IMG/VR virus record: IMGVR_UViG_3300032325_000022
Location: 1-27,754 of that record
Source: a virus
Reading direction: 5' to 3' (one strand)
Length of the DNA stretch: 27,754 nucleotides
Position numbers and translations under genes: made by a program. This document shows positions 8,986 to 27,074 of the stretch, one piece after another; position 1 is the stretch's first letter; the number at the start of each line of letters is the position of its first letter. Below the pieces are notes generated by a model. That model was not told where the DNA came from. It saw only the letters and a list, made by a program, of their open reading frames with translations, and did no database searches.

Positions 8986-9333
8986 ATGGCACACTACGCA
9001 TTTTTAGATGAAAACAACATCGTCACCGAGGTAATCGTTGGAATTGACGAAACTGAGCTTATTGAAGGTCTAAATACTGAAACTTGGTACGGCAACTTTA
9101 GAGGTCAGGTTTGTAAAAGAACAAGCTACAACGGAAACATTCGCAAGAACTACGCGGGCATTGGCTACACTTATGACTCAGAGCTTGACGCTTTTATTCC
9201 ACCTAAGCAATTTGATAGCTGGGTAATTGACGAAGCTACTGCTCGCTGGGAAGCACCTGTACCTATGCCTACCGATGGTGTTTACAGTTGGGATGAAGAA
9301 ACACTTAGCTGGTTAGAGATTGAGGAAGTCTAA
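8986..9333 (+). CDS. Conserved aquatic-phage fiber-associated protein
   Basis: A 115-residue protein of a type I recognise from marine and freshwater phages, including cyanophages. It starts MAHYAFLDENNIVTEVIVG, has the middle RTSYNGNIRKNYAGIGYTYD and ends with a Trp-rich segment of the form SW.id..t..WEAP.P.PtDG..Y.WDE.t.sW. No biochemical function is established that I know of. It is typically encoded near tail fibers, as here after the adhesin with an AAGGAAAA ribosome site. Repeated Trp/Asp-Glu phrases suggest small beta modules. A fiber component or fiber-assembly helper is plausible. Its last 21 bases overlap the convergent sulfotransferase gene. Confidence 0.65.
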   Translation: MAHYAFLDENNIVTEVIVGIDETELIEGLNTETWYGNFRGQVCKRTSYNGNIRKNYAGIGYTYDSELDAFIPPKQFDSWVIDEATARWEAPVPMPTDGVYSWDEETLSWLEIEEV

Positions 9334-10131
9334 AGCGTTTCCATACTTTTGAATCACATAGTCAGTTAGAAGCTCGCTAGGGTCTGTTTTAGGTCTAGCG
9401 AGTTTCTTATTTACATCGTGTAAACCCAACATCCCATAACCAGCTAGATCGTCGTGGTTATCTACTGCCTTGATGCTATTGAAGTTATGCTCAAAGCGGT
9501 CAAGCCCCAAGAAGTCGTAGATTCCATCCATTGTCGCTTGTGGGCTATCTAACAAGTCATTAAACCAAACAACATAAACCTTGTCCCTATGGTTTTTGAT
9601 TAGATTGGCAATAGAAAAGATTGCTCGATCCATCTCACCATTAGCAGCCATAATGTTATCTGCCTGAGAGTCGGTCACATCTCGATAGTGTGAAGTCCAA
9701 AGGTCATTGTTCAGGTAAGGCATACTCGCCGTAGCCTTGTGAGTCTTTTTGGCAACCTGAATAAACGAAGCAAGAACTTCTAGGATTGGTCGCATTGTCA
9801 AGATGACTTTGCCATCTGGATTGACATACAAACTAAGGTTGTCCCAGTTGTAGGGTGTTCCCCAACCCCTGTTCTTGTCAATGATTACTGGCTTGTCAAT
9901 CGGGGCATAAAAGTTGTCTGCCATTCCATAAAGAACCGAAGCAAAGTTAGGCAGCATAAGTTTAGCCCTATAGCTTTCGTAATTTGGTATCTTGCTTTCA
10001 AGTTCATAGAGCATTCCTATTAAGTCAGTCTGCGGACTTGAGTAGATTTCTGGGTTCTGATTTAGAATGGCAGCTAGAACGGTACTACCCGAACGTGGTA
10101 GCCCAGCCATAAAATGATAGGTTTTTGTCAT
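9313..10131 (-). CDS. Sulfotransferase (PAPS-dependent family)
   Basis: A 272-residue protein with the PAPS 5'-phosphosulfate loop GLPRSGST at residues 10-17 and a 3'-phosphate-binding region VILTMRPILEVLASF around 109-123 (Arg114, Ser122). The C-terminal IYDFLGL also fits sulfotransferase families. It would move sulfate from PAPS to a sugar, protein or small molecule. PAPS must come from the host. It is one of only two leftward genes in the window, set between the fiber block and the lysis cassette, which suggests a separately regulated accessory ('moron') gene. AGGG lies 8 bases before its start. Target unknown; fiber, host glycan or modified DNA sugar are all possible. Confidence 0.85.
   Translation of the reverse strand: MTKTYHFMAGLPRSGSTVLAAILNQNPEIYSSPQTDLIGMLYELESKIPNYESYRAKLMLPNFASVLYGMADNFYAPIDKPVIIDKNRGWGTPYNWDNLSLYVNPDGKVILTMRPILEVLASFIQVAKKTHKATASMPYLNNDLWTSHYRDVTDSQADNIMAANGEMDRAIFSIANLIKNHRDKVYVVWFNDLLDSPQATMDGIYDFLGLDRFEHNFNSIKAVDNHDDLAGYGMLGLHDVNKKLARPKTDPSELLTDYVIQKYGNALDFLNL
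9368..9412 (+). terminator. Terminator of the tail operon, inside the antisense sulfotransferase gene
   Basis: AGAAGCTCGCTAG (9368-9380) pairs with CTAGCGAGTTTCT (9395-9407) in a 13-bp stem with one G-U pair and a 14-base loop. The 3' arm runs into TTTCTTATTT on the + strand. It lies 35 bases after the + strand stop at 9333. The - strand side is not T-rich, so it should act mainly on rightward transcripts. Confidence 0.6.
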
Positions 10132-10948: not shown

Positions 10949-11214
10949 AGAAAATTATTGAAAAGCTAAAGCAAGAAGAAACCATTAGACAACTTAAGGC
11001 TGCGCTTTGGTCTTACTTGCGAGCTGCTATTTCCGCAGTTGGCGCGATGCTTCTAGCAGGTATCGAAGATCCAGCACAGATAACCTTGTCAGCACTTCTC
11101 GGCGGTATCCTCGGACCACTAATCAAGGCGCTAGATCCTAGCCAAGATGAATACGGTATCGGCGCTAAAGTTGAGGCTGCGATTGTGACTGAGGAATCTG
11201 CTTCTTCCGAGTGA
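10945..11214 (+). CDS. Holin-like protein
   Basis: An 89-residue protein with a charged N terminus, two closely spaced hydrophobic segments (LRAAISAVGAMLLAGI and ITLSALLGGILGPLIKAL) and an acidic, Ser-rich tail. This matches two-segment actinophage holins, which form lesions in the inner membrane to release endolysin. It overlaps the endolysin stop by 4 bases, so it is translated with it. Its 3' end overlaps the convergent WhiB-like gene by 50 bases, meaning the acidic C-terminal tail and the WhiB C-terminal tail are encoded by the same DNA in opposite directions. Confidence 0.7.
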   Translation: MKKIIEKLKQEETIRQLKAALWSYLRAAISAVGAMLLAGIEDPAQITLSALLGGILGPLIKALDPSQDEYGIGAKVEAAIVTEESASSE

Positions 11215-11491
11215 GTTCTAGCCTCGCTTCGCGTCTTTCACGCGCGTTAGTCCCACCCCAAATACCATAATCTTCTTGCGCCGAAATCGCATAATCTCGG
11301 CATAGATCCTTGATGGGGCATTCCGCGCATAACATTCTGGCGATTCGCTCAGAAAGCACTTTGGCTTTCGGGTCAAAATAATCTTCAGGGAAATAAAAGT
11401 CCGAGTTCTCTCGGCAAGCTAGGGTTTCGCCACGATCCTCAAGCTCGGCTTGCGCGTGGCAAAACTCCGTAAACGCTCTATCTCTATCCAT
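11165..11491 (-). CDS. WhiB-family iron-sulfur transcription regulator
   Basis: A 108-residue protein with the four WhiB cysteines (C26, then C55-x2-C58-x5-C64) that hold a [4Fe-4S] cluster, followed by the turn GIWGG at residues 76-80 and a basic tail (NARERREARLELTRKK) for DNA contact. WhiB proteins bind the main sigma factor and act with it at promoters, and they are typical of Actinobacteria and their phages. It is transcribed leftward, alone, at the border between the late lysis genes and the rightward early/DNA genes, the usual site for a switch regulator. AGGG lies about 8 bases before the ATG. Confidence 0.92.
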   Translation of the reverse strand: MDRDRAFTEFCHAQAELEDRGETLACRENSDFYFPEDYFDPKAKVLSERIARMLCAECPIKDLCRDYAISAQEDYGIWGGTNARERREARLELTRKKQIPQSQSQPQL

Positions 11492-13423: not shown

Positions 13424-13866
13424 ATGGGCAAAATAAACTCAGGTCTTATGAGTAGCGCCACAGACGAATGGGCAACTCCGTTAGATCTATTCCAAGAATT
13501 AGATCGCGAATTTGGATTTACTTTAGATGTTTGCGCGGATGACTGGAATCACAAAACACTACGATACTTTGACAAAACTGCCGATGGGCTAAGTCAAAAT
13601 TGGGAAGGTGTTTGCTGGATGAATCCACCATACGGAAGGCAAATTGGCGCATGGCTTAAGAAAGCCTACGAATCTAGCGGGGGGGGGCAACTGTGGTTTG
13701 CCTAGTACCTGCTAGAACAGATACCGCTTGGTGGCACGATTACGCAGCGAAAGGCGAGGTGCGCTTTATTCGTGGTCGTATAAAGTTCGTAGGTCGCGAA
13801 GGACCAAAAGACGCTGCGCCATTCCCCTCAGCAATAGTTATCTTCAGACCCGAAAGGCAAGCATGA
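13424..13866 (+). pseudogene. Dam-like DNA N6-adenine methyltransferase, frame broken at a G9 tract
   Basis: The first frame encodes GLMSSATDEWATPLDLFQEL and the catalytic motif IV NPPY (residues 67-70), then stops at TAG 13703-13705. The rest of the same protein (GATVVCLVPARTDTAWWHDY, then VRFIRGRIKFVG and APFPSAIVIF) continues in the -1 frame to TGA 13864-13866. The switch is at nine consecutive G (13679-13687). A one-base backward slip or a tenth G gives AYESSGGGATVV, exactly the family spacing, about 147 residues. It may be regulated by slippage, phase-variable, or a sequencing or true indel. If made, it would methylate adenine, likely in GATC or a similar site. The next gene starts within its stop (ATGA). 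Confidence 0.85.
13679..13687 (+). repeat. G9 homopolymer tract inside methylase gene
   Basis: Nine consecutive G are present at the exact point where the Dam-like reading frame breaks, far longer than expected in this moderate-GC sequence. It is a likely site for polymerase, RNA-polymerase or ribosome slippage, or for a homopolymer sequencing error. Confidence 0.95.
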
Positions 13867-14216
13867 GCGAGATCGTCACCCCTGACCAAATAATCAAAGC
13901 GCTGACTGAGATACGCGCAGAAGCTGAAAAGGGAATCGAAGCGCAATACCGCGCTGAAGTTGAGCTGAGTCAAAAGCAACTAGAAGTAGATCGGTTAGAG
14001 TCCGCAGCTTTCTTACGCATCAACGGACTTGTCGCAGATCGTCAAGCACTCGCAAAGTTGGAAAGCTCGGAAGCGCGATTAGAAGCCGACCTAGCCAAAG
14101 CCAAGTTCAATCGGGTCAAGACTAAACTCCAACAGCTCAATCAGGCGCAGAGCGCTTTACAAACACAAGCCAGAATGGTCGAGATTACTTATACGCAAGC
14201 TGGACTGGGAAGATGA
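13863..14216 (+). CDS. Coiled-coil protein of unknown function
   Basis: A 117-residue protein, helical almost throughout, with heptad-like Leu/Ala spacing (QLEVDRLESAAFLRINGLV, then KLESSEARLEADLAKAKFN). The ATG at 13863 is chosen because it overlaps the methylase stop by ATGA. The longer frame that begins at 13728 merely reads the methylase tail out of frame. No domain is recognised. Its stop overlaps the next start by 4 bases. A scaffold or subunit role is possible, but nothing in the sequence shows it. Confidence 0.75.
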   Translation: MSEIVTPDQIIKALTEIRAEAEKGIEAQYRAEVELSQKQLEVDRLESAAFLRINGLVADRQALAKLESSEARLEADLAKAKFNRVKTKLQQLNQAQSALQTQARMVEITYTQAGLGR

Positions 14217-20605: not shown

Positions 20606-20781
20606 TGCCGACATACGATTACAAATGCCCTAAGTGCGAGATGACCACAGTAGTTATCCGCACACTTCAAGAAGAAGAAAAGAAACCCATTTGTATTACT
20701 GACGCGCTAGAGCTAGTAAGGTACTACGGTAGCCCAGTAGTCCAGTTCAAGGGCACAGGATTCTATAAGAACGATAAGTGA
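20605..20781 (+). CDS. FmdB-like zinc-ribbon protein (58 aa)
   Basis: A 58-residue protein opening MPTYDYKCPKCEM and ending VVQFKGTGFYKNDK, the two diagnostic ends of FmdB-type small zinc-ribbon proteins. The first CxxC is intact (C8, C11), but the second pair is reduced to a single Cys30 (KPICIT), so zinc binding may be altered. TAATG and TGATG junctions on the two sides fill the gap between the phosphoesterase and HNH genes. Function in phages is not established. Confidence 0.8.
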   Translation: MPTYDYKCPKCEMTTVVIRTLQEEEKKPICITDALELVRYYGSPVVQFKGTGFYKNDK

Positions 20782-21122
20782 TGGCTGGCTTCCCCAAACC
20801 TTGTATCGAATGTGGCAAGCTCTCACTCGGAGATACTCGTTGCGAAACTCACAGACTAGAACACGAACGGATAAGGGAGTCACTAAGACCTAAGCGAGTA
20901 AGGGCTAATAAAGGCTACAGACCTCACTACACAGGTGACTATTGGAAACGATCAAAACAAGTAAGAGAAACCGCAAGATACTGTCACTTATGTAAAGACG
21001 GACCAAGGCATAACGACCCTTGGACAGCTGATCACCTAATCGCAGGAGATCCGAATAGTCCTCTACTGCCAGCCCATCGGTCCTGTAATAGCAGTCGTGG
21101 AGATAAGCCTCTAACTACCTAA
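20781..21122 (+). CDS. HNH endonuclease, packaging-associated
   Basis: A 113-residue HNH nuclease. The N-terminal CIECG...CETH (C8, C11, C21, H24) is an extra zinc knuckle. The core has CHLC (68-71), DH at 84-85 in WTADHLIAGD, His99 in LLPAHRSCN and N103...R106, the complete HNH set. HNH proteins beside terminases help terminase cut phage DNA at packaging sites in HK97-like phages. Here the terminase genes follow after a DNA-modification cassette. ATG 20781 is preferred; GTG 20778 would overlap the prior stop. Confidence 0.85.
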   Translation: MAGFPKPCIECGKLSLGDTRCETHRLEHERIRESLRPKRVRANKGYRPHYTGDYWKRSKQVRETARYCHLCKDGPRHNDPWTADHLIAGDPNSPLLPAHRSCNSSRGDKPLTT

Positions 21123-21276
21123 TACCCCCCTACGCCTACACTAGGGGCGGGTCAAATCCTCTCAGTCCCCCCACCCTAAACCCCCCAACCTTTAGCCTTG
21201 TATAGAATCCCGCGAAAGTCAGACTTTTTTTGGGTTCTGGTGTAGTCTGGAATCACGACTAAGAGAGGAAGCTAAA
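21123..21276. other. C-rich intergenic region, candidate cos/packaging or promoter region
   Basis: This 154-base gap is the longest non-coding stretch before the packaging genes. It has three C6 runs (21125-21130, 21167-21172, 21181-21186) and an inverted repeat CCCCTA (21127-21132) / TAGGGG (21142-21147). Further right are TATAGAAT (about 21200-21208), which could be a -10, and a small AAAGT/ACTTT stem followed by T7. The opposite strand is G-rich enough to suggest quadruplex formation. A promoter for the ParB-terminase operon must lie here if the unit is separately transcribed. Confidence 0.5.
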
Positions 21277-21984
21277 ATGTCCGAGATCGCCAAAGACCTG
21301 AAACCCCTAATCCAACCGATGAGCAAGCTCAAGCCAGCTAAGCACAACCCACGCAAAGGTGATGTTGAGTCCATCAAAAAGTCCTACGAGCGCTTCGGTC
21401 AGCGCAAACCGATTGTCGCAGATCGCGCGACTGGTGAGATTATTGCTGGCAACCATCAGTTCCTAGCAGCTCAGGCTTTGGGCTGGTCGGAGATGGCAGT
21501 TGTGTTTGTCGATGACGATCCCGAAACCGCAATCGCTTATGGTGTTGCCGATAACCGTATTGGTCAGCTAGGCGAATGGGACATTGAAGAACTTGTCTAT
21601 GCGCTCGATGAGATCGGACTGGATTCTATTGAGAGTGTTGGCTTCAAGGAGTCAGATGTTGAAGACTTCCGCGCACTACTAGACGAACACCAAATGACCG
21701 CACCCGCAATCGCAATTCAAGATGGCGGACTACGCGATGCTGATGGTGGAACCAGCTCAGTTGATTCTGAAACCAAAGTAAAGAAAGACGCAACCTACGC
21801 AGAGTTTCTAGAGCGATACGCCAACCGAGCTGTCCGCGCAATTATTCTTTATTACCCAAACGATGACTACGGTAAAATGGTAGAGAACCTAAAATTAGCT
21901 GCGAACAAACTTGGGACTAAAGACAACGCGGAAACTGTTCAAGCTCTTACTGAGAAAGAATTGAAGAATGAGCAAGCTACCTGA
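21277..21984 (+). CDS. ParB-like nuclease-domain protein
   Basis: A 235-residue protein with the ParB/sulfiredoxin fold: PAKHNPRKGD (HNPR at 23-26), GQRKPIV (41-47) and IIAGNHQFLAAQALG (55-69), the nucleotide-binding loop with Asn-His-Gln in place of the usual G-x-R. The N-terminal domain is typical of phage ParB-like proteins that accompany DNA modification or terminase genes and may bind CTP/ATP or act as nucleases. A helical middle (EWDIEELVYALDEIG) and a unique C terminus follow. It overlaps the dioxygenase start by 17 bases, so they are co-translated. It is unlikely to be a partition protein, as no ParA or centromere repeats are seen. Confidence 0.85.
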   Translation: MSEIAKDLKPLIQPMSKLKPAKHNPRKGDVESIKKSYERFGQRKPIVADRATGEIIAGNHQFLAAQALGWSEMAVVFVDDDPETAIAYGVADNRIGQLGEWDIEELVYALDEIGLDSIESVGFKESDVEDFRALLDEHQMTAPAIAIQDGGLRDADGGTSSVDSETKVKKDATYAEFLERYANRAVRAIILYYPNDDYGKMVENLKLAANKLGTKDNAETVQALTEKELKNEQAT

Positions 21985-22858
21985 ATTTTTGATTGACCGA
22001 GTTCTAAACAAAGAACAGGCTGATGAAGTTGTCGGCGCAAAAGTAGAAGCACTAGAACCTAATGTCAATGAAGCTGGGATCTATCGCGACAGAGAAACTG
22101 GCGAAGCTATTTTGGTTTACGCGCCATACCCTGCTTCGATTACTCCGCTACGCAAAGCTGTCCTAGACACTAACTACTCAACGACCCTACGCGCCAGCGG
22201 AACTAGAAATGTGTCCAGAACTTTTGGCTTTACAAATAGATCCGCAGTTCTTCAGCGCGAAGCCTGTACTCCAACATCGCTGGCTTGGGAATCCCCAGAA
22301 GCAAGCATCACCCTCAACGAAACTGCCGAAGTGCTTGGCGATTATCTACGCGAGCAGTTGCCAGAAGTGTTCCTTCACGATCAGGCAGAACTATCACAGG
22401 TGCTACCAGAATGGCGCATGACCGAAGACGCGCTTTGGACCTCTGGCGTAATCAACCAGTCTTCTGCTTTGCCTTATCACCGCGATGGATCTAACTTCGA
22501 TACTTGGTCCGCGATGCCTGTTGTCCGCAGAGGAATGGACGGCGGAAATCTACATATGCCTGAATACGGAATCACTATTAACTGTCGTGATGGCTGGGCG
22601 CTTTGGTTCAACGGATACGCGTATGTTCACGGTGTAACACCAATGTCCCCACGCGCTAAAGATGGCTACCGCTACTCAATCGTCTTCTATGCGAAGCGCG
22701 GAATGAAAGACTGCCACACCTACGCAGTCGAACTTGGTGAGGCTCGCGCTCGCCGACAGGGTCGCGAAGAAGGTATGACAGATACCTCAGTCGAAGGCGC
22801 GATGGCTAAGATACCGAATGGCAGATCTAACGGAGATACGCGTATTATCAACGACTAG
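21968..22858 (+). CDS. TET/JBP-like 2-oxoglutarate/Fe(II) dioxygenase
   Basis: A 296-residue protein whose C-terminal half has the full dioxygenase set: H171-R-D173 in LPYHRDGSNFDTW, the strand GGNLHMPEYGI (192-202), the second iron His221 in YVHGVTP, and Arg235 in GYRYSIVFY for 2-oxoglutarate. The spacing and the 'HGVTP...RYS.VFY' ending match the TET/JBP group, which oxidises the 5-methyl of 5-methylcytosine or thymine in DNA. In phages this produces hydroxymethyl bases that can be sugar-capped. The next gene is a TET-associated glycosyltransferase, strongly supporting that role. The protein also resembles general 2OG oxygenases, so the DNA target is inferred. Confidence 0.82.
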   Translation: MSKLPEFLIDRVLNKEQADEVVGAKVEALEPNVNEAGIYRDRETGEAILVYAPYPASITPLRKAVLDTNYSTTLRASGTRNVSRTFGFTNRSAVLQREACTPTSLAWESPEASITLNETAEVLGDYLREQLPEVFLHDQAELSQVLPEWRMTEDALWTSGVINQSSALPYHRDGSNFDTWSAMPVVRRGMDGGNLHMPEYGITINCRDGWALWFNGYAYVHGVTPMSPRAKDGYRYSIVFYAKRGMKDCHTYAVELGEARARRQGREEGMTDTSVEGAMAKIPNGRSNGDTRIIND

Positions 22859-22882
22859 CAGTAAAGTAAAAGAGAGTGAACG

Positions 22883-23626
22883 ATGTTAGATTACGAAATT
22901 GCTATACCCTCGCACAATCGTAGTGAGGACATAAACCAGTACAGCCTGAAGTATCTTGCCGAAACTGGAATCAGTAAAGAGCGCGTCCGTATTTTTGTTG
23001 CGCCAGATCAAGTTGCTGCTTATGAGCAGAATACTGATGCTGGCTTATACAATGAGATTGTTCCAACAGCCATCGGTATACGCGCTAACCACAATGCGAT
23101 AACTGAGTTCTACCCAGAAGGCAAAGCGCTAGTCAGGCTCGATGATGATGTTCGCTACTTAGCAAAGGCGCAAGATCCGAAGACGCTGACTCGGATAAAC
23201 AACACACACGAACTAATTCTTGATTCTTTTAGTCGGGCTGATGAAGTCGGTGCTACTCTCTGGGGACTTTACCCAATAGACAATCCTTTCTTTATGAAAC
23301 CCAAAGAGCGCTACGGACTATCCTTTATCATCGGTCAGTTCTTCGGTGCTTACAATCGTCACGCTGAAGTTCTTGGCGCAGAAATAAAGGAAGACTTTGA
23401 GCGCTCGATTCTTCGATTTATTGCCGATGGGATAGTCCTACGCTTTGAGGATCTAACAGCAGTAGCAGGTCGTGTCGGCGGTAATCGTGGCGGACTACAA
23501 ACAATGGATCGCGCAACTATGAACGAACAGGGAACTGATTATTTACTAAACACTTACCCAGAGTTTGTGACAGAAAAGAAATCACGAGCCAACGGATACC
23601 GAGAAATCAAACTACGAAATGTCTAG
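22883..23626 (+). CDS. TET-associated glycosyltransferase (TAGT), GT-A fold
   Basis: A 247-residue protein of the GT-A type. It starts YEIAIPSHNRSEDINQYSLK, typical of the TAGT family, has the donor-binding acidic triad in LVRLDDDVRYL (Asp87-89), and a later region FFGAYNRHAEVLGAEIKEDF plus DGIVLRFEDLTAVAGRVGGN that fits the family's acceptor site. TAGT enzymes are predicted, and in some phages shown, to add sugar to 5-hydroxymethyl pyrimidines made by TET/JBP enzymes. The gene follows the dioxygenase by 24 bases with an AGAGAG ribosome site and overlaps TerS by 8. Sugar and target base are unknown. Confidence 0.8.
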   Translation: MLDYEIAIPSHNRSEDINQYSLKYLAETGISKERVRIFVAPDQVAAYEQNTDAGLYNEIVPTAIGIRANHNAITEFYPEGKALVRLDDDVRYLAKAQDPKTLTRINNTHELILDSFSRADEVGATLWGLYPIDNPFFMKPKERYGLSFIIGQFFGAYNRHAEVLGAEIKEDFERSILRFIADGIVLRFEDLTAVAGRVGGNRGGLQTMDRATMNEQGTDYLLNTYPEFVTEKKSRANGYREIKLRNV

Positions 23627-24065
23627 AACTGGCAGACCACCGAAACCCACAGAAGTAAAACGAGCCTTGGGAAACCCAGGAAAACGAGCGCTGCCCAACG
23701 AGAAAACAATCGTGGCTTTACCGCAGATAACTCAGACACCAGAAACCAGCAGACCTCTCGGCTCACACGGTAAACAATTCTGGGACCGCGTCTGGCAAAT
23801 GGGATCTACTTGGATTAGTTCAAACACAGATTACGAAGCCATGCTAATGACTGCCGAGATGATTGACGAGCGCTGGAACTTGCGCGTGAAGGTTATGACC
23901 GAAGGGCAAGCGCGGGATCGCCGAGCGCTCAGGGACTTAGATCGCGCAATCCAAAGCCAGTTATCTCTACTGGGGCTGACTCCTGCGGATAGATCGCGTC
24001 TGGGTGTGGCGGAAGTCAAGAAGTTGAGCAAGATCGCCGAGCTAAGAAATATGCGTAATGAGTAG
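23619..24065 (+). CDS. Terminase small subunit (P27-like)
   Basis: A 148-residue protein starting with the basic GRPPKPTEVKRALGNPGKRA, a clear signature of P27-type small terminase subunits. Later helices, SHGKQFWDRVWQMGSTWISS and MLMTAEMIDERWNLRVKV, fit the family. It recognises phage DNA and recruits the large subunit. It overlaps TAGT upstream by 8 bases and TerL downstream by 8, so the modification genes and packaging genes are one transcription unit. Confidence 0.88.
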   Translation: MSRTGRPPKPTEVKRALGNPGKRALPNEKTIVALPQITQTPETSRPLGSHGKQFWDRVWQMGSTWISSNTDYEAMLMTAEMIDERWNLRVKVMTEGQARDRRALRDLDRAIQSQLSLLGLTPADRSRLGVAEVKKLSKIAELRNMRNE

Positions 24066-25581
24066 TTATCCACCGCGCTGGATTACGCCAGTAGATAGAC
24101 ACGACCACGAATCTAGTCGCGCTGAACAGATTATGGCTTTCGTAGAAGCATACGGACTACAAACCAAAGACACCATCGCAGGTAAAGCAGGTAATTCCTT
24201 AGTCCTACGCGATTGGCAGCGGGAACTCATTAGGGATCTATTCGCCGAAGACGAAGACGGCAAACTGCTTCATCGAACAGCCTTGGTCGGAATGCCGCGT
24301 AAAAATGGCAAGAGCGCGCTCGGATCTTCACTAGCTCTATGGTCGCTTTACTTAGGGGACAATGGTGGTGAAGTTTACAGTTGTGCTGCTGAAAAGGAAC
24401 AGGCTCGTATCGTGTTCTCTGACGCAAAGCGCATGGTAGAAAATAATCCTGACCTAATGGAAATGACAAAGCTTTACCGCGATGCGATAGAAGTAGTAAG
24501 CACAGGATCTATATACCGAGTTCTATCTGCGGAAGCTTTCTCAAAGGAAGGTCTATCGCCTACCTTCGTAGTGTTTGATGAACTTCATGCCACACCTAAC
24601 CGAGAACTGTTTGATGTTATGGCTCTGGGTATGGGTGCTAGGCGTGAACCGATGTTGCTTTCCATTACTACTGCTGGGGTAAAGACAGATAGCACTGGGC
24701 AAGATTCAACTGCGTATAGCTTGTATCAGTATGGGCAGCGCGTAGCGCGGAAAGAAATCGAAGATCCCAGCTTCTTTATGGCTTGGTGGGAAGCAACAGC
24801 CGAAGCACCATACCAAGATCCAAAAACATGGGCGGAAGCTAATCCAGCATTTGGGGATCTGAACGCCGAGGAAGATTTTATTGCTATGGCTCGGCGGACA
24901 CCCGAAGCTGAATTTAGAACCAAGCGCTGCAACCAATGGGTAAGCTCTCAAAACGCTTGGCTGCCCTCGGACAGCTGGTTGCCGTTAGCTGTCAGCAAAG
25001 AGCTAGACCCCGAAGCTGAATACATACTAGGCTTTGACGGCTCGTTCAACCAAGACTGTACTGTCATCGTAGGGTGTCAAATCCCGAAAGATGAAAACGA
25101 AAAGCCTTATCTGTTTTTGGTGAAGGCGTGGGAAAAGCAGCCAGAAGATACCGATGATTGGCGCGTGGATACGCTGGATGTAGAAAACGAGATAATCAAG
25201 TTTGTTCAGAATTATCCAAGGACTAGGGAAGTGGCGTGTGACCCTTTCCGCTGGCAAAGATCTATGGCGGTTCTTCAGGACAAGGGTGTGCCGATTGTTG
25301 AATGGCCATCGACTTCGGTCAGGCGTATGGTTCCTGCTTGCCAAAAGTTCTACGAGAATGTGACAGAAAGTAAACTAGAACACGACGGCAATCCATTACT
25401 AGCGCGACACCTAAGCAACGCAGCAGTAAAGATTGACAACTATGGACCAAGAATTGTGAAGGAACACAGACACAGCTTGCGAAGGATTGACGCAGCGGTA
25501 GCTGGTATTATAGCTCTAGACAGAGCGCTAACAACTCATGAGAAAGAGGAACTGCCACCAATCCCGCAGTTCTTCATTTAG
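24058..25581 (+). CDS. terL: Terminase large subunit
   Basis: A 507-residue two-domain packaging motor of the HK97-like group. The ATPase has the Walker A variant GMPRKNGKSA (residues 78-87) and Walker B FVVFDE (170-175). The RNase H-like nuclease domain starts at ILGFDGSFNQD with the first metal Asp, and a later Asp appears in REVACDPFRW. The C terminus has IDAAVAGIIALDRAL, typical of the last nuclease motif. It cuts concatemeric DNA and drives it into proheads. Length is normal. If the DNA carries glycosylated bases, the nuclease must tolerate them. Confidence 0.95.
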   Translation: MSSYPPRWITPVDRHDHESSRAEQIMAFVEAYGLQTKDTIAGKAGNSLVLRDWQRELIRDLFAEDEDGKLLHRTALVGMPRKNGKSALGSSLALWSLYLGDNGGEVYSCAAEKEQARIVFSDAKRMVENNPDLMEMTKLYRDAIEVVSTGSIYRVLSAEAFSKEGLSPTFVVFDELHATPNRELFDVMALGMGARREPMLLSITTAGVKTDSTGQDSTAYSLYQYGQRVARKEIEDPSFFMAWWEATAEAPYQDPKTWAEANPAFGDLNAEEDFIAMARRTPEAEFRTKRCNQWVSSQNAWLPSDSWLPLAVSKELDPEAEYILGFDGSFNQDCTVIVGCQIPKDENEKPYLFLVKAWEKQPEDTDDWRVDTLDVENEIIKFVQNYPRTREVACDPFRWQRSMAVLQDKGVPIVEWPSTSVRRMVPACQKFYENVTESKLEHDGNPLLARHLSNAAVKIDNYGPRIVKEHRHSLRRIDAAVAGIIALDRALTTHEKEELPPIPQFFI

Positions 25582-25590
25582 GAATAGACA

Positions 25591-25722
25591 ATGGCAAGTT
25601 CAATACAAATTATTGGGGCAGCTCTAGTTTCGCTTGGGGTTAGCTTTGTATTTTTACCCGCAGGAATGATTGTCGCTGGTGCTTTGGCGATTGTATTCGG
25701 AATTAGTTTGGAGAAGAAGTAA
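25591..25722 (+). CDS. Membrane microprotein between terminase and portal (43 aa)
   Basis: A 43-residue, nearly wholly hydrophobic protein: IQIIGAALVSLGVSFVFLPA, then GMIVAGALAIVFGISLEKK. It would make two short membrane passes or one long hairpin. Its ATG lies nine bases after the TerL stop, and its stop overlaps the portal start (TAATG). Small membrane proteins at this place occur in other actinophages. Function unknown. Confidence 0.7.
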   Translation: MASSIQIIGAALVSLGVSFVFLPAGMIVAGALAIVFGISLEKK

Positions 25723-27074
25723 TGCTTGGAAATCTATTTGAAAAGAGAGCAATCTCTTACCAGACTATTTGGGGTTCGGGAGATGACTTCGATCTAGGCT
25801 CACAAGCTGGACCGCTTATCAACAGCGAAACCGCTTTCCACATCAACCCAGTCTTCTCAGCAATCAGCCTAATCAGCGACACCATCTCAACACTTCCGCT
25901 AGACGCTTTTGTTCGTGAAGGTGGCGAGCGCCGAGCGCTAAGACCAAGACCAGCTTGGGTTCTAAAGCCAGATGTGGACACAACCAAAGAAGCTTTCTAC
26001 GGGTCTATCATTGTGTCTCTGCTTCTAGACGGAAACGCTTTCGTACGCGTTTACACCCAGAACAATCAGATCGTAAACCTAGTTGTGCTGAACCCGCAGA
26101 CAGTAGAGGTTAAGCGCAACGGACTAGGTCGCTTGATGTTCAATGTTCAGGGCGAGGGCAAGCCACTAACTAGCGAAGAAGTAATCTTTATTCCAGATGT
26201 TGTTAGACCAGGAAATCTACGCGGAGTTAGTCGAGTAGACGCGCTGAAGGACAACTTCGGTTTGGCTAAGGCGCTAGAAACTTACGCAGCCAGATTCTTT
26301 GGTCACGGCGCAACTACCAGCGGAATTATTGAATACCCGCACGATCTAACTTTTGAGCAGTCGCAAGGTTTGGCAGCAGCATTTGACGCCAAGCACAAGG
26401 GTCTAAGAAAGTCGCACAAGACTGGTGTTCTATCTGGTGGCGCAACTTATAAACCAACAAATGTTCCGAACGATCAGGCACAGTTCCTAGATTCTCGCAG
26501 AATGGCAGTAGAAGATGTGGCTCGCGCTTTCAATGTGCCACCACACCTACTCGGACTATCGGGAACTAACTCTTACGCTTCGGTAGAACAGAACAACTTG
26601 GCATGGGTCACACACGGTCTACGACCAATCATTTCTAAAATCGAGAACGCTCTATCGCCACTACTAGCGCTAAGTCCTAATGGGCAAAATGCTTTCTTGC
26701 GCTTCAACATAGATGGGCTACTACGCGCTGACATTAACTCGCGTATGTCTGCTTACAGCATCGGACTTCAGTCTGGATTCTTGACAATCAACGATGTCCG
26801 TAGGCTAGAAGATCTTCAGTCTATTGACGATCCAAGCGCAAACACAGTCCGCGTACCACTAGCGAATGTGAATGTCGAAGACGCTGGTCTCACAGGACTA
26901 GATCGCAGAATACTTATGGCTAACAGACTTGTGACATCGGGCTTCAAGCCAGAGCAGGTATTGGCAGCTCTTGGATTACCGGCAATCGAACACTCAGGCA
27001 TTCCGAGCGTAATGATTCAAGGCGTGTCACAGATTGACCCAGAAGATCCGCTATCGGTATACGAGGTCAAATAA
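25722..27074 (+). CDS. Portal protein (HK97-like)
   Basis: A 450-residue portal. Diagnostic phrases are NPVFSAISLISDTISTLPLD near residues 45-65, then AFYGSIIVSLLLDGNAFVRV, EEVIFIP, LETYAARFFGHGATTSGIIE and RRMAVEDVARAFNVPPHLLG, all conserved in HK97-type portals. Twelve copies form the DNA entry ring of the capsid and bind TerL. Length is typical. The start overlaps the microprotein stop by one base, and it overlaps the next gene in the same way. Confidence 0.95.
   Translation: MLGNLFEKRAISYQTIWGSGDDFDLGSQAGPLINSETAFHINPVFSAISLISDTISTLPLDAFVREGGERRALRPRPAWVLKPDVDTTKEAFYGSIIVSLLLDGNAFVRVYTQNNQIVNLVVLNPQTVEVKRNGLGRLMFNVQGEGKPLTSEEVIFIPDVVRPGNLRGVSRVDALKDNFGLAKALETYAARFFGHGATTSGIIEYPHDLTFEQSQGLAAAFDAKHKGLRKSHKTGVLSGGATYKPTNVPNDQAQFLDSRRMAVEDVARAFNVPPHLLGLSGTNSYASVEQNNLAWVTHGLRPIISKIENALSPLLALSPNGQNAFLRFNIDGLLRADINSRMSAYSIGLQSGFLTINDVRRLEDLQSIDDPSANTVRVPLANVNVEDAGLTGLDRRILMANRLVTSGFKPEQVLAALGLPAIEHSGIPSVMIQGVSQIDPEDPLSVYEVK

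Follow-up and report, generated by a model that had tools for sequence, protein, structure and literature searches.

A predicted DNA hypermodification cassette with an exchangeable decoration slot beside the terminase genes of a probable actinophage

Introduction

In kinetoplastids, base J is made by the thymine hydroxylases JBP1/2 and by JGT, which take T to 5-hydroxymethyluracil (5hmU) and then to glycosyl-5hmU (PMC6449724). Among phages, the beta-glucosyl-HMC-alpha-glucosyltransferase of T6 belongs to the TAGT family, PF20691, and has a GT-A fold (PMC13216743), and Rhodococcus phage Tonitrus, which carries ParB and TET genes together with an amino-acid:DNA transferase (ADDT) and a kinase, has been published as having a predicted thymine hypermodification system (PMC11955845). 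In addition, ParBc proteins lie near many phage cytosine carboxymethyltransferases, although their role there is unknown (PMC12783734).

The locus described here lies in a viral contig of 27,754 bases (the window), which is a fragment; further phage genes could lie in the missing part. An earlier note, made from the sequence, had placed a ParB-like gene, a TET/JBP-type oxygenase gene and a TAGT-type glycosyltransferase gene directly before TerS and TerL, and this order is confirmed by Pfam, PHROG and the ORF coordinates (Table 1). The two steps predicted for the cassette are those of base J synthesis; the hosts are unrelated, and the likeness is at the level of the pathway. With the T6 enzyme, the window transferase has in common the PF20691/phrog_842 family and the GT-A fold. 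However, T6 makes hydroxymethylcytosine at the nucleotide level, without a TET enzyme, and its transferase attaches a second glucose to the already glucosylated base, whereas the window cassette includes a TET gene. It is probable that the whole constitutes a post-replicative DNA hypermodification cassette, in which thymine would be oxidised and then glycosylated, with an exchangeable slot for the decorating enzymes.

Table 1. Features of the cassette and its borders in the window
Feature	Position	Strand	Basis
Small HNH-endonuclease-like protein, left neighbour of ParB	20778..21122	+	phrog_5718 E 6e-5; position conserved
ParB-N/Srx-superfamily DNA-binding-like protein	21277..21984	+	phrog_620 E 6e-33
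TET/JBP-type 2OG-Fe(II) DNA oxygenase	21968..22858	+	PF12851 above cut-off
TAGT-type GT-A glycosyltransferase, swappable slot gene	22883..23626	+	PF20691 E 5e-5; phrog_842 E 2e-9
Segment exchanged relative to L010	22900..23625	.	blastn breakpoints
TerS (terminase small subunit), conserved right border of slot	23619..24065	+	PF25673 E 4e-7; phrog_83 E 2e-17
TerL (terminase large subunit)	24058..25581	+	PF03354 E 1.5e-21; PF20441 E 1.2e-16

Related phages and the probable host

A tblastn search with the oxygenase returned 92 phage records, nearly all of them actinophages, and the general layout in cultured relatives is ParB-TET-[slot]-terminase. The same ParB-TET-TAGT order as in the window is found in the Bclasvirinae (Acadian, Indlovu, Serendipitous) and in Arthrobacter phages (Altadena, Prairie), whose oxygenases are 42-46% and transferases 31-35% identical to those of the window. 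These modules add a PIG-L-type deacetylase and, in the Bclasvirinae, also a PF18751 kinase, whereas in the window the TAGT gene leads directly to TerS; furthermore, the Arthrobacter phage modules lie away from the terminase genes. In Tonitrus and the Gordonia phage Wooper, ParB-TET stands upstream of terminase as in the window (oxygenase 46-49% identical), but the slot holds an amino-acid:DNA transferase and a kinase of the PF18751 (5hmU-kinase) family instead of a glycosyltransferase. In Margaery, KayaCho and Nigel, it holds the kinase only.

The earlier note had expected a little-studied variant, but the arrangement is not rare: ParB-TET occurs in dozens of cultured actinophages, several of which carry a TAGT gene. 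The cassette belongs to a known kind that is chemically little characterised; what is new is the exchangeable decoration slot. The annotated close relatives of the window are actinophages, and the window itself carries a WhiB gene (11165-11491), so that an actinobacterial host, as had been proposed, is plausible. The module also turns up in bacterial sequence, where it may belong to a prophage: a Brevibacterium genome contig (L063), the one locus returned by a scan of genome contigs, has ParB-TET-ADDT with HYP5-type and kinase genes and no transferase of the TAGT kind.

Gene layout and selection

The five ORFs from 21277 to 25581 are co-directional, with overlaps of 17 bases (ParB/TET), 8 bases (GT/TerS) and 8 bases (TerS/TerL), and most close relatives also have the HNH-like gene next to ParB on its left. 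Scans for promoters and terminators gave signals at chance level only; consequently, the limits of the operon are drawn from gene overlaps only. Comparison with the relative L007 gave dN/dS values of 0.10 for ParB, 0.09 for TET, 0.13 for the transferase, 0.05 for TerS and 0.07 for TerL. These ratios indicate that all five genes are maintained as proteins by purifying selection, which argues that the gene set is not a product of chance.

The oxygenase

The oxygenase matches Tet_JBP (PF12851) with an E-value of 6.6e-9 and scores 35.6 bits, just over the family cut-off of 34.9; all 34 of its close relatives match the family at E<=0.001. The active site read in the earlier note has been borne out: the iron triad H171-D173-H221 and the 2OG-binding R235 are invariant in the 34 oxygenase sequences, together with many surrounding residues. 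The confidence of the AlphaFold model is moderate, with a pLDDT of 65 that drops below 50 in the active-site loop. Nevertheless, when the TET assignment was set against small-molecule or protein hydroxylase families by fold, the 23 best PDB matches were all of the TET family (CMD1, CcTet, NgTET1, TET2), with other oxygenases ranking lower. A PDB sequence search with the oxygenase or its profile gave no useful match, so placement in the family rests on Pfam and fold. Taken together, sequence and model assign the enzyme to the TET/JBP family, and oxidation of a 5-methylpyrimidine in DNA is its predicted activity.

RefSeq records of relatives and PHROG carry labels that would instead have the oxygenase modify RNA or nucleotides, such as "queuine tRNA-ribosyltransferase". 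This label was rejected, since both the window protein and the 34 relatives match Tet_JBP in Pfam and none matches a tRNA-transglycosylase; moreover, the fold search returned TET enzymes that act on DNA. An activity on RNA or nucleotides is therefore extremely improbable.

At the left ends of three Bclasvirinae genomes (L002, L052, L058), the TET gene bears this same queuine label, and the PF18751 kinase is labelled variously "adenylate kinase" or "terminase small subunit". Both look like propagated mis-annotations.

The glycosyltransferase

The match of the window transferase to PF20691 (E 5e-5, 23.7 bits) is below the cut-off of 27.5, and 22 of 30 slot transferases from relatives match the same family at E<=0.001, the best at 4e-11. 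It also matches phrog_842, the family of the T6-type glucosyltransferase. The product is modelled confidently as a GT-A fold (pLDDT 91.5), its best fold matches being GT-A/GT2-type transferases, with some nucleotidyltransferases listed. The 30 slot transferases align over their full length, with D88, D89, D171 and R210 invariant. Thus, of the GT-A transferase with a DDD donor site that had been described, the fold and two of the aspartates (D88 and D89) stand, but D87 varies. The enzyme is predicted to glycosylate a hydroxymethyl base.

It could be argued that the transferase decorates a virion protein or a host target rather than DNA, and that its place beside the oxygenase is accidental or serves regulation. 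Phages do carry GT2-like enzymes with other functions, and there is a separate sugar gene cluster in the window, at 3-1698. However, a TAGT-superfamily gene occupies the interval between TET and terminase in 55 of 85 relative contigs, where it alternates with genes for a DNA-base-modifying kinase and an amino-acid:DNA transferase, and the phrog that it matches is that of a known phage DNA glucosyltransferase. A target other than DNA is thus very unlikely.

The cluster at 3-1698 comprises a group-1 glycosyltransferase, a GT2/galactosyltransferase-like gene and a cytidylyltransferase-like gene, and it precedes head-tail or tail-looking genes from 1708 onward. It may possibly be a second sugar pathway.

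A swap slot between TET and TerS

The interval between TET and TerS, to which the earlier note had given no attention, is, by sequence comparison, a swap slot. The flanks of the window and of relative L010 are 90.3% identical in DNA at 21071-22899 and 92.5% at 23626-26584 (blastn), and the breakpoints coincide with the start and stop of the transferase. Between them, the window has one TAGT gene (~0.73 kb), whereas L010 has a 31%-identical transferase and an NAD-dependent sugar epimerase (~1.8 kb). The same exchange separates L018 from L017 and L046 (flanks 83-85% identical), and another separates L011 from L010 (flanks 79-81% identical). A chimeric assembly as the source of these differences was rejected, since the slot types recur in independent contigs: the window and L009; L010, L015, L018 and L043; L006, L007, L008, L017, L046 and L050.

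A survey of 85 metagenomic relative contigs, the window included, found one to four transferases alone in the slot in 42 contigs. In seven, there is a transferase with an epimerase gene, the latter further along in some; in six, transferases with a protein of 243 amino acids; in seven, a kinase; and in another seven, an amino-acid:DNA transferase with or without the kinase. The remaining 16 have none of these families in the slot, and in six of them (L033-L035, L037, L039, L040), the spacing between TET and TerS is just 10 bases. Transferase and kinase share a slot in none of the 85 contigs; they occur together in Acadian-type phages.

On the well supported branches of the oxygenase tree, the window slot type (GT_W) calls for at least four changes, GT_10+epimerase for at least three and GT_11 (L011 type) for at least two, while the kinase, empty and multi-transferase types form one group each. 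The tree thus requires repeated exchange of the slot. Furthermore, the transferase evolves far more quickly than the genes around it, also where the slot type is the same: between L006 and L007, its pN is 0.113, compared with 0.003 (TerL), 0.013 (TET) and 0.015 for the neighbours.

These results have led to a model in which recombination in the conserved flanks, whose sequences bear the mark of such exchange, replaces the decorating enzyme or enzymes. Related phages would then keep the hydroxymethyl handle and change what hangs on it. A constant handle-maker with a changing decorator would be the pattern left by an arms race over DNA decoration.

In multi-transferase phages, the slot begins with the gene for the 243-aa protein (L045:633-1364), which has homologues in L030, L038, L041, L042 and L049. 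It has no Pfam, PHROG or NCBIfam match and is a candidate for a new sugar- or base-modifying enzyme.

The modified base

Which pyrimidine is oxidised bears on the identity of the product. C5-methyltransferase genes (PF00145) and members of the thymidylate-synthase family (PF00303, the dUMP/dCMP hydroxymethylase type) are both absent from the 14 cultured carrier genomes. The PF18751 kinase, annotated as a 5hmU DNA kinase, is present in 11 of the 14; we take its substrate, from the annotation and general knowledge, to be 5hmU in DNA. The amino-acid:DNA transferase (PF18724) is present in several cultured relatives. Consequently, no source of a hydroxymethyl base other than the oxygenase is recognised in these phages. 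Within the window's own clade, L023 and L026-L028 have the kinase in the slot, and their oxygenases share 73-75% identity with that of the window.

Burke et al. 2021 (cited in PMC11347163) reportedly described a phage pathway in which a TET-family oxygenase starts from 5mC and feeds further decoration. Were the window oxygenase likewise to act on 5mC, made by a methyltransferase of the host or by a phage enzyme so far unseen, the transferase would glycosylate 5hmC. The fold matches are all from the 5mC-acting TET branch, although structures of trypanosome JBP oxygenases may be absent from the library, and the characterised T6 TAGT works on glucosylated hydroxymethylcytosine (PMC13216743). A C5-methyltransferase is found elsewhere on the contig in 5 of 69 metagenomic relatives; none is present in the window record, but this is a 27.7 kb fragment, and such a gene may be encoded outside it or by the host. 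However, unlike in the pathway from 5mC, no C5-methyltransferase accompanies the cassette in the 14 cultured relatives, no methyltransferase lies inside any slot of the 85 contigs, and genes of the 5hmU-kinase and amino-acid:DNA transferase families accompany this same family of oxygenases. The 5mC route is thus unlikely, and thymine, giving 5hmU in DNA, is most likely the substrate.

If so, the TET/JBP enzyme, whose family is well placed, would hydroxylate the 5-methyl group of thymine in phage DNA, and the TAGT enzyme would move a sugar from a nucleotide-sugar onto the hydroxyl of the resulting 5hmU. This would yield a glycosylated 5-hydroxymethyluracil resembling base J, which may shield virion DNA from host nucleases. 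The original proposal of DNA hypermodification by TET-type oxidation and glycosylation is well supported by families, invariant sites and the fold search. It should be noted that a simple glycosylated-5hmU scheme leaves unexplained the co-occurrence of TAGT, deacetylase and kinase in Acadian-type phages.

The ParB-like protein

The Pfam ParB_N match of the first gene product (E 7e-4) falls below the cut-off of that family, and the protein matches phrog_498, a ParB-DNA methyltransferase fusion, at E 3e-29. Its N(P/A)R and AGNH boxes are conserved, and a ParB gene is the next gene upstream of TET on the + strand in 73 of 85 relative contigs, with the contig edge cutting 10 more. We infer that it is a DNA-targeting or accessory subunit, which probably attaches to DNA and recruits or directs the oxygenase.

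Position beside terminase

In L080, L098 and L112, inspection of the sequences showed the cassette directly before a terminase of another sequence type. In contrast, the two are apart in Arthrobacter phage Altadena (terminase, 1-1.9 kb; cassette, near 38.7-42.1 kb), so that linkage is not needed for function. The terminase-adjacent position is thus favoured and very common, but not universal. The earlier idea that modification is coupled to packaging keeps the adjacency in its favour; this evidence is positional, and Altadena separates the two. Late co-transcription with the head genes is a simple alternative.

Implications

A wider reading, to which we would give an even chance, is that actinophage DNA carries glycosylated 5hmU, the viral equivalent of base J, and that the one terminase-side slot switches the decoration while the TET-made handle is kept, a means of contending with modification-dependent host defences in an arms race. 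In that case, the decorations switched would include different, layered or epimerised sugars and adducts made by the kinase or with amino acids, or the 5hmU would be left bare. Such a device would connect many phage TAGT genes that stand alone and have no known role (288/753 phage genomes, PMC13216743). It would also open a way to new enzymes that decorate DNA, and the relation between decoration and defence would become testable in isolated M. smegmatis phages.

Other genes in the window

At 9313-10131 on the minus strand, the window encodes a sulfotransferase-family protein (PF13469) that falls in phrog_27463, of unknown function. A Dam-type N6-adenine methyltransferase (PF05869) is encoded in two pieces at 13424-13900. 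The frame for its N-terminal half stays open as far as 13705, and the coding sequence for the C-terminal portion resumes in another frame after a G-rich run, the result of a frameshift or a sequencing error.
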